Shown piece after piece: positions 51,080 through 53,067 of a stretch of DNA of 64,000 nucleotides. The notes below the pieces were generated by a model, which had not been told where the DNA came from, did not search any database, and saw only the letters and a program-made list of their open reading frames with translations. The first letter of the stretch is position 1, and each line of letters begins with the position of its first letter. Source of the stretch: an uncultured Acidimicrobiaceae bacterium (lineage in GTDB: Bacteria > Actinomycetota > Acidimicrobiia > Acidimicrobiales > Ilumatobacteraceae); contig CAIXIJ010000005.1 of assembly GCA_903919455.1 (NCBI GenBank), forward strand, positions 1 through 64,000, read 5' to 3'. The translations under genes were made by a program, and so were the position numbers.

Positions 51080-51496
51080 TCAGGCGCCGCCGGCCATCGA
51101 CTCGGTGCCGGCCTCGTTGACCAGCTCGTAGCGGGCGGGGGTCCAGATCTCGAGGCGGTCGAAGCTGCCGGCAACCATGACGGCACCGGACAGCGGCAGT
51201 TCGGCGTACTGACGCAGCGAATCGCCGACCTTGACGCGGCCCTGCTTGTCGAGCGCGACCAGTTCGGCGGATGCAGCGAGCGCACGCAGCACGTCGCGGC
51301 TGATCTCACCGTTGCGGACGCGAGCGGCCATCACCGCAGCCTCTTCCTCGAATGTGGCGGCGGGCACCACGCTCACGGACTTGTCGAGGCCTTTGGCCAG
51401 GTAGCAGTGCTCACCGAGGCGGTCGCGAAAGGCGGCTGGCAATGCCAGCCGGCCCTTGTCGTCGAGTTGGCGTTCGAACGCCCCGACGAACAGCAC
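51080..51496 (-). CDS. mraZ: Transcriptional regulator MraZ
   Basis: LFVGAFERQLDDKGRLALPAAFRDRLGEHCYLAKGLDKSVSVVP; second AbrB repeat LDKQGRVKVGDSLRQYAEL; GTG preceded by GTGGAGG. Confidence 0.95.
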   Translation of the reverse strand: MLFVGAFERQLDDKGRLALPAAFRDRLGEHCYLAKGLDKSVSVVPAATFEEEAAVMAARVRNGEISRDVLRALAASAELVALDKQGRVKVGDSLRQYAELPLSGAVMVAGSFDRLEIWTPARYELVNEAGTESMAGGA

Positions 51497-51545
51497 GTCG
51501 CCTCCACTTCCCTTCTCGCCTGTCTGCCTCAGGGGACGGTTGGCG

Positions 51546-51570
51546 CACCCGCACTCCCCACTGCTCCCCA
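51546..51570 (-). promoter_or_regulatory. Second MraZ-box-like array near predicted dcw transcription start
   Basis: Minus strand TGGGG-AGCAG-TGGGG-AGTGC-GGGTG; 5-nt spacers. Confidence 0.5.
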
Positions 51571-51599
51571 TCTTGCCCCCCTACTCCCCCCAAAGTCAA
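51570..51599 (-). promoter_or_regulatory. Predicted dcw (mraZ) promoter
   Basis: Minus strand TTGACT (51594-51599), 18-bp spacer, CAAGAT (51570-51575). Confidence 0.45.
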
Positions 51600-51622
51600 C
51601 CACTTCTCCCCATTTTTCCCCA
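51598..51622 (-). promoter_or_regulatory. MraZ-box array upstream of mraZ
   Basis: Minus strand TGGGG-AAAAA-TGGGG-AGAAG-TGGTT; matches three TGGGN boxes with 5-nt spacers. Confidence 0.65.
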
Positions 51623-51662
51623 CGGAGCGCTTCCGCGTCCCCACCCCGCGCGCTCCCCCCTT

Positions 51663-51782
51663 GGGCGCGAAACCCGCCAAATGCGGCTCACTTCGCGCCC
51701 ACGGGCGCGAAAGGTGCCAGAAATGGCAGGAATCTCACCCGTGGGCGCGATTCCTGCCAACTTGCGTGGGGGTCGCGGCGAG
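51663..51782. repeat. 40-bp-period structured intergenic repeat
   Basis: GGGCGCGA at 51663, 51703, 51743; inverted repeats GGGCGCGAA/TTCGCGCCC (51663-51671, 51692-51700) and TGGCAGGAAT/ATTCCTGCCA (51724-51733, 51750-51759). Confidence 0.75.
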
Positions 51783-51808
51783 CCACGCGGGCCGGGGGTG
51801 AGCCGGGC

Positions 51809-51827
51809 GGGGCGGGGCGGGGCGGGG
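51809..51827 (+). other. G-quadruplex-prone tract
   Basis: GGGGCGGGGCGGGGCGGGG, four G4 runs with single-C loops; more G-runs to 51860. Confidence 0.7.
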
Positions 51828-51865
51828 CCGGCGAGGGGCCGGGCGGGGCCGGGGGCCGGGTCGAC

Positions 51866-51889
51866 GGTTGGCGTGGTTGGCGTGGTTGG
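51866..51889 (+). repeat. 9-bp repeat, two-quartet G4-like
   Basis: GGTTGG-CGT-GGTTGG-CGT-GGTTGG. Confidence 0.65.
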
Positions 51890-51896
51890 CGGCGGG

Positions 51897-52556
51897 TCAG
51901 GCGGGGAGGTGGGCCACGAGCGCGGCCATCACCTGGTCGGCCGGTGCAGCCACGCACGCTGCCGAGGCAGCCAACTCGGCTGCTACAGGCCGCGGTGTTG
52001 CCACCAGCGCAGCCACCAGTTCCGGCCGCCACCGCAGGTGACACATGGTCTGGAATCTCGCCAGGTCACGACTCCGGCGTTGGGAGATACCGACCAGTTT
52101 GCCCGTCCCGCTTATCACCTCGCCGGTTCCGATACCGGCCCAGCACACCTGCTTCGACCAGGAATTCGACTCCATCGACCCCTCGTGTACTCGGCCCTCT
52201 ACGCCAAGCTCGGCCAGCGCAGTCGCCCAGGCCCGGCCCAGCCACAGCATGGAGCGAGCTACATCATCCAGCCACAGATCGTCGCCGGCCGGGACCACCA
52301 CGTCGGCCCACACGAACTCGCCCGGCAGCAGCAACACGGCTCCCCCGCCGCTGCGACGTCGAACGACATCCGCCCCCAGCGCTGCGGCCACACGCGACGC
52401 TGCTTCCACCGGACTCTGAGCAGACCCAAGCACCAGCGTGGGCCGCTCCACGGTATGGAACGTGATCGACCGCTCCGCGACCGGCGTCGAGGCGTGGAAT
52501 GCCGCAGCGTCGCCGTGAGAGTGTCGAATGGTCCAGCCGTGGGGCATGAGGCCCAT
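51897..52556 (-). CDS. Lipoate/biotin-protein ligase A family protein
   Basis: ERPTLVLGSAQS, VVRRRSGGGAVLLLPGEFVWADVVVP, SGTGKLVGISQRRSRD. Confidence 0.88.
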   Translation of the reverse strand: MGLMPHGWTIRHSHGDAAAFHASTPVAERSITFHTVERPTLVLGSAQSPVEAASRVAAALGADVVRRRSGGGAVLLLPGEFVWADVVVPAGDDLWLDDVARSMLWLGRAWATALAELGVEGRVHEGSMESNSWSKQVCWAGIGTGEVISGTGKLVGISQRRSRDLARFQTMCHLRWRPELVAALVATPRPVAAELAASAACVAAPADQVMAALVAHLPA

Positions 52557-52569
52557 GCTAGGGACGGTG

Positions 52570-53067
52570 TCAGCTGGCGAAGGCCAGGTATGGCTTCCAT
52601 TCGTCGGGCACCATGGCCACCGCGGCACTCACCCAGGCGTGTTCCTTCGGGGCCCGCGGCGGCCGGGCCAGCACCATGTTGGCCTCCGCCGGAGTGCGAT
52701 CCCGCTTGCGAAGGTTGCACGGACGGCACGCCGCAGCGACGTTCTCCCACTCGTGCTGCCCACCTCGACTACGAGGCACGATGTGGTCGATGGAGTCGGC
52801 GAAACCACCGCAGTACTGACAGCGGAACTCATCGCGGGCGAACAGTGCCCGCCGCGAGAGCGTGGTGCGCCGATGAAATGGTGCCCTCACCATGTACCGC
52901 AGTCGAACCACCGACGGGCTGGGCAGCACCAAGTTGGGCGAGTGGAGTTCTGTGCCGTCGTCGGCCACGAGGTCGGCGCGATCGGCGATGATCAGACACG
53001 CTGCCCGACGGGCAGGCACCACGGAGAGCGGCTCATAGGTGACATTCAACACCAGCGCGCTCCGCAT
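52570..53067 (-). CDS. HNH endonuclease
   Basis: ARDEFRCQYCGGFADSIDHIVPRSRGGQHEWENVAAACRPCNLRKRDRTP. Confidence 0.93.
   Translation of the reverse strand: MRSALVLNVTYEPLSVVPARRAACLIIADRADLVADDGTELHSPNLVLPSPSVVRLRYMVRAPFHRRTTLSRRALFARDEFRCQYCGGFADSIDHIVPRSRGGQHEWENVAAACRPCNLRKRDRTPAEANMVLARPPRAPKEHAWVSAAVAMVPDEWKPYLAFAS

Follow-up and report, generated by a model that had tools for sequence, protein, structure and literature searches.

What is a tight array of nested palindromes doing between a gene for a lipoyl ligase and the gene mraZ? The window analysed here (the whole stretch of 64,000 nucleotides, from one contig of an uncultured Acidimicrobiaceae bacterium whose genome is called G000 below) raises this question in a single intergenic gap, for which the original prediction had offered three answers: a dispersed genomic repeat, an array of operators in helical phase, or an RNA element in the 3' untranslated region of the ligase gene. 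Its starting observation holds by position: the 8-mer GGGCGCGA stands at 51663, 51703 and 51743, with an exact period of 40 bp. This is the only site within the 64-kb window at which an exact 8-mer recurs at +40 and +80, and the count of such triples in 30 first-order Markov windows was zero. The features of the locus are the following.

51080-51571, minus strand: mraZ, the downstream neighbour of the element (Pfam PF02381, E 2e-19).
51594-51599, minus strand: TTGACT, putative -35 of the mraZ promoter, outside the element (read from the sequence).
51659-51759, no strand: complete dispersed palindromic element, three GGGCGCG units at a 40-bp period, 2.5 palindromes (14-copy alignment; covariance-model match at G000:C5:51659-51759).
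51663-51670, plus strand: unit 1, GGGCGCGA (sequence).
51703-51710, plus strand: unit 2, GGGCGCGA (sequence).
51743-51750, plus strand: unit 3, GGGCGCGA (sequence).
51663-51700, no strand: hairpin H1, GGGCGCGAA (51663-51671) with TTCGCGCCC (51692-51700), inner GCC/GGC pair.
51715-51728, no strand: hairpin H2, alternative inner stem TGCCA-GAAA-TGGCA.
51724-51759, no strand: junction hairpin J2, 51724-51740 with 51743-51759 (folding, both-side pair changes).
51897-52628, minus strand: lplA-type lipoyl ligase gene, the upstream neighbour, with the element in its 3' flank (Pfam PF21948, E 5e-12).

The element is built of a unit, GGGCGCGAAAnnTGCCA, followed by a partner arm, TGGCAnnTTCGCGCCC; unit and arm alternate, so that each arm has either neighbouring partner available for pairing. 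Competing hairpins had been predicted and are indeed there, since the TGGCA arm is contested by J2 and H2. The 9-bp inverted repeat that had been described is the one found in H1; the 10-bp one, TGGCAGGAAT/ATTCCTGCCA (51724-51733 and 51750-51759), is present too, but as the outer part of a longer, 17-bp repeat (51724-51740 / 51743-51759, 88% paired) that forms J2. None of 200 shuffles folds as stably as the element, on either strand (z -3.9 and -4.6). Among genomic copies the outer arm of H1 is frequently imperfect (80% of cells paired) and the H2 stem switches from G-C to C-G in 5 of 14, while J2 has changes on both sides in 9 of its 16 pairs. Covariation for fold B (J1 plus J2) is 0.233 against 0.145 when shuffled, a value reached by none of 500 shuffles, and for fold A (H1 plus H2) 0.108 against 0.082; fold B with its junction hairpins is the better supported of the two, with J2 the best supported hairpin and fold A weakly supported. 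The named structures were counted in this way because the RNAalifold consensus was a different, long-range structure almost without a covariation term. The element of the window and its ortholog in G007 are 95% identical, and two of their five differences (51729 G/C and 51754 C/G) form a compensatory pair. Template-switch repair inside palindromes can also produce paired changes, so the covariation is evidence of pairing and no proof of an RNA function. A search of the window against Rfam returned no match at or above the gathering score, in agreement with the earlier statement that this is not a recognised riboswitch.

A search at the DNA level uncovered many further copies in the own genome, at 70-82% identity. 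Fourteen genomic copies align without gaps over 101 columns, and their conservation stops abruptly at window positions 51659 and 51759, by which the extent of the feature, originally drawn from 51663 to 51782, is revised to 51659-51759. A covariance model made from these 14 copies matches at least 24 distinct loci in G000 (counted by hand, each locus giving two rows, one per strand, because the element is palindromic), and it has matches in 13 of the 15 species of the genus, most of these genomes being draft metagenome assemblies in which absence is weak evidence. The sequence is therefore neither unique nor unconserved. By a rough gene call, the surroundings of 22 copies are convergent in 12 cases, tandem in four and divergent in four, and two copies lie inside open reading frames; convergent gaps thus hold 12 of the 20 classifiable copies, compared with 5 of the 17 wide gaps of the window. 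With its short palindromic unit, 20 of 22 copies intergenic, tens of loci, and pairing kept despite sequence change, as in repeats of the REP/REPIN type, the feature in the window is one member of a dispersed, REP-like family of palindromes, the first of the three answers. A CRISPR array was also considered and is ruled out: the whole 101 bp is conserved between copies without gaps, which leaves no free spacers. Three copies in G000 (L019, L020 and L021, at C119:26650, C54:8387 and C8:58132) have a longer conserved neighbourhood in common (AAGAGCGCCCATATCGGGCACTCGG ... GAGGCG), which suggests, as far as the sequences go, a larger composite repeat; at the C119 site about 317 bp including the element are missing in G007.

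The same gap in other species bears on whether the element belongs to its locus. An element of the GGGCGCG type lies between lplA and mraZ in G000 and G007, palindromes of a TCTGGG type in G003, G010, G014 and G005, and a GAGGTC...GACCTC palindrome in G009; no such element is evident in this gap in G002 and G011, nor upstream of mraZ in G001, G004 and G006, where the upstream neighbour is a different one. With other palindromes or none in the gap elsewhere, a riboswitch, or an RNA specific to this 3' untranslated region, is rejected: the element does lie 3' of the lplA-type gene, as the third answer had it, but it is no RNA element specific to the locus. What is kept in most species of the genus is a GTTGAC followed by a T-rich/GGGG motif, probably the mraZ promoter, whose putative -35 lies about 60 bp beyond the element. 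Around that -35 (51599-51594), six TGGGG motifs, several of them 10 bp apart, occupy the minus strand at 51556-51643; they resemble MraZ-box repeats and are kept across the genus. On the other side, between the element and lplA (51780-51895), there is a G/C-rich, imperfect GGGGC tandem stretch with TTGGCGTGG repeats, which is expanded differently in G007.

Could the copies be kept simply as bidirectional terminators or as hairpins that stabilise mRNA? The strong folding of both strands, the covariation of the junction hairpins, the excess at convergent gene ends and the position 3' of lplA would all suit such a use. We nevertheless consider it quite unlikely as the explanation of the family: the elements have no T-run, and the same gap holds an unrelated hairpin or none in other species. 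Moreover, a nuclease gene that is bracketed by these elements (below) would be merely one gene among them, which leaves unexplained both why this gene family is bracketed when control genes are not and why one gene matches one repeat across five unrelated genomes. As a secondary use of the elements, a role in termination or stabilisation can be true.

The family has turned over recently, as comparison of G000 with G007 reveals. The element at C18:46692 is missing from G007; at C116 three units stand against one, exactly two 40-bp units having been lost; and at C1:92260 there is one array in G000 and four in G007. At the empty counterpart of C18:46692, the one such site that was read, no clean target-site duplication was seen, and a 14-base overlap was rejected as a duplication because, with 9 of 14 bases identical between the flanks by eye, it is too weak. 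Locus L193 of G007 (C19, 595-1140) carries four consecutive arrays, where the G000 counterpart has one full and one partial copy; from the sequence, the run of four would be a tandem amplification of whole arrays. G007 also carries, at L192 (G007:C133), about 277 bp of additional inserted sequence upstream of its ortholog of the element at G000:C63:4784.

In several species two elements stand 1.0-1.1 kb apart in inverted orientation, and the single gene between such paired elements always encodes a protein of 307-325 aa (P0001, L012:2144-3121); this link between repeat and gene was not anticipated by the original prediction. In G000 the gene is C69:5643-6617 (325 aa), bracketed by two inverted copies of the window element, and inverted pairs around it are found in G000, G005, G007, G014, G004, G002, G001 and others. 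Pfam recognises AbiEi_4 in the protein above its cut-off, and MTES_1575 and DUF559 weakly, below theirs. In an AlphaFold2 model (pLDDT 85), the N-terminal part matches the AbiEi antitoxin 6y8q (E 2e-7) and Rv2827c, and the C-terminal part matches the domain of the homing endonuclease I-Bth0305I (E 8e-3, TM 0.77 on the target), with Vsr also listed; a PDB sequence search with the nuclease profile gave no match. The protein is accordingly modelled as an N-terminal AbiEi-type domain (a winged helix plus the AbiEi C-terminal fold) joined to a C-terminal nuclease domain of the Vsr/EDxHD type, the C-terminal match being modest. Ten diverse members all share residues E222, D254, E265, H272 and D281.

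Orthologs of this gene are 55-62% identical and single-copy, except in G004, whose two copies (G004:C13:40785-41720 and G004:C7:247531-248454) are the only duplication seen in the GGGCGCG clade. They occupy the same gap between nuoN and a glutamine amidotransferase gene in at least eight species, so the gene is inherited vertically at one site and is probably not a self-spreading transposon. An inverted pair around one gene does resemble a small insertion sequence, and solo ends resemble MITEs; the elements might then be MITEs, or what is left of the ends of an ordinary DDE or HUH insertion sequence, with the AbiEi-nuclease as a passenger. This is very unlikely: the paired elements, about 1.0-1.1 kb apart, leave no room for another coding gene, PF01797 (the Y1/HUH transposase) has no match in the own genome in a search for that family in which control genomes gave matches, and throughout the phylum unrelated palindromes are accompanied by this one enzyme family. 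Nor does the gene look like a defence nuclease, a restriction or abortive-infection factor for which the palindromes would be protected sites of its own genome or traces left by earlier attacks. The N-terminal half matches PADLOC AbiEi models, and Vsr-like domains are used in conflict systems (PMC3710099). In the loci read, however, no AbiEii toxin partner was seen beside the gene, the neighbours at the main site being nuoN and the glutamine amidotransferase-like gene, and the same palindrome on both sides together with dispersal is no known feature of such systems; we regard this explanation as highly improbable. The protein thus shares its N-terminal fold with AbiEi antitoxins (S. agalactiae AbiEi and M. 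tuberculosis Rv2827c), a family that binds inverted repeats, and differs from them in the fused nuclease, the lack of an adjacent AbiEii in what was read, and the dispersed repeats on both flanks; its C-terminal fold, with conserved acidic and histidine residues, is that of Vsr and EDxHD homing endonucleases (I-Bth0305I) and of DUF559/MTES_1575 nucleases, yet no intron is involved here, the gene being intergenic and palindrome-bracketed.

Most genomes of the genus hold five to nine homologs of the gene, down to 20-30% identity, and bracketing extends to these. Flanks were long enough in 58 homologs, and in 51 of these an inverted-repeat pair scoring at least 28 lies close to the gene on both sides, compared with 0 of 18 ordinary genes of the window and 1 of 30 other genes; mismatched pairs of flanks pass at 6.5%, some of them being true clade-mates. 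The score also misses true cases: the G009 paralog L157 fails although both its flanks bear the same diverged palindrome family. The palindromes differ by protein clade (GGGCGCG, TTCTGGG, CGAGT(C/G)GG, AAGTYGGCGTT, CGTTTGAAG, GAGGGTTTCC and others). Mapped on a maximum-likelihood tree of 62 homologs, the palindrome classes require 14 changes, compared with a shuffled mean of 38.8 and with none of 200 shuffles as low, and the TTCTGGG class forms a single, fully supported clade; the patterns that define the classes were chosen once the flanks had been viewed, so this map of clades to palindromes is descriptive. Each protein clade tends to have its own palindrome, gene and repeat having diversified together.

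The palindromes that flank other paralogs are dispersed as well. In G000 those beside the paralogs on C58, C122 and C70 occupy at least about 19, 14 and 8 loci (hand counts); among the matches listed, the C58 and C70 families have none in G003 or G009, and the L157 palindrome has matches only in G009. The mraZ gap can now be read anew: the palindrome in the G009 gap is the one that flanks L157, and the TCTGGG type also flanks nuclease paralogs in G003 and G014. In G009 and in G003/G014, then, the gap palindromes match a family flanking a nuclease paralog of the same genome; in G005 and G010 no TCTGGG-flanked gene was found.

A regulon offers another way to link gene and repeats. The AbiEi-nuclease would then be mainly a transcription factor acting at its own flanks and at many further sites, and the palindromes would be operators kept by selection and not spreading; AbiEi autoregulates through inverted repeats upstream of its own gene (PMC7319586), and the elements are intergenic and palindromic. 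Yet gaps between convergent genes, and not promoters, hold 12 of the 20 classifiable copies; elements also stand directly after the stop codon of the nuclease gene; occupancy of sites varies among close species; whole units are gained or lost and arrays expand in tandem; and the nuclease residues are conserved. Operators of a regulon are therefore unlikely, and the helically phased operator array of the original prediction falls on the same convergent positions and on the unit number that varies between close relatives. A period of 40 bp is also no whole number of helical turns.

The association of a palindrome family with an AbiEi plus Vsr/EDxHD gene is thus a matter of observation. We consider it probable that the two form a system like that of REPs and RAYTs, but with a nuclease of unrelated origin, whose activity would spread or maintain the repeats. 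The AbiEi half may bind the palindrome, as AbiEi proteins bind inverted repeats in experiments (PMC7319586); the nuclease half may cut it as a duplex, cruciform or hairpin; and repair could then copy the repeat to new or related sites. The repeats would thereby multiply and the gene remain in single copy, in the manner proposed for RAYTs and REPs, and the window copy, lying between lplA and the mraZ promoter, may through its hairpins affect the 3' end of the lplA transcript.

What is observed here resembles REP/BIME and REPIN-RAYT pairs (REPtrons) in its short intergenic palindromes, alternating array and tens of dispersed copies, and also in having one gene per repeat family, two inverted bracketing copies, vertical inheritance without amplification, and co-diversification of gene and repeat. 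Set against the published description of RAYTs (TnpA-REP; PMC2817692), the enzyme is an AbiEi plus Vsr/EDxHD-type nuclease and not a Y1/HUH transposase, the aligned copies show no obvious GTAG or CGTC head, the arrays are of three units and 101 bp, and the copy number is lower than the >100 copies usual for REPs (PMC2817692). It would work like a RAYT-REP pair and yet be no member of that group, because the defining HUH transposase is absent. TIRtrons, in which RAYT-like genes (TIRYTs) are flanked by terminal inverted repeats that are also dispersed repeat families (PMC3733652), have the same arrangement of a gene between inverted repeats found elsewhere, but their enzyme is an HUH transposase unrelated to the AbiEi-nuclease family. 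CGTC REPs, palindromic repeats reported without a dedicated transposase (PMC3733652), are alike in that respect and unlike in sequence tag and hosts. No published report of a pairing of AbiEi-nucleases with palindromes was found in the open-access literature, by which this type of enzyme has not previously been tied to such repeats.

The pairing reaches beyond the genus. For a prospective test, five genomes of other genera (G056, G071, G048, G115 and G122) contributed one palindrome each, picked solely for flanking such a gene, and all five proved to be dispersed in their own genome, at no fewer than about 15, 29, 16, 16 and 7 loci respectively (hand counts), in a choice that favoured homologs with good flanking repeats. 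Each matched its own genome only and none of the other four, among the matches listed. About half of 46 phylum-wide homologs with usable flanks pass the flank test, so the pairing is common and not universal at this sensitivity. Whether Actinomycetota harbour a large and so far unrecognised class of repeat-nuclease systems, in which single-copy AbiEi plus Vsr/EDxHD genes each recognise, spread and maintain their own palindromes, with an origin independent of RAYT/HUH enzymes and with several systems coexisting per cell, is to our minds an even bet.

These observations bear on where the short palindromic repeats of bacterial genomes come from and how they last. To our knowledge, the HUH RAYT family is the one dedicated enzyme class known so far for such repeats; if throughout a phylum each palindrome family has its own partner from a second, unrelated kind of nuclease, such a way of life has arisen on more than one occasion, DUF559/MTES_1575-type nucleases gain a likely role, and ready enzyme-substrate pairs are at hand. 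Three genomes of one genus (G078, G115 and G136, about 6 Mb) carry 7-11 homologs each, several of them palindrome-flanked.
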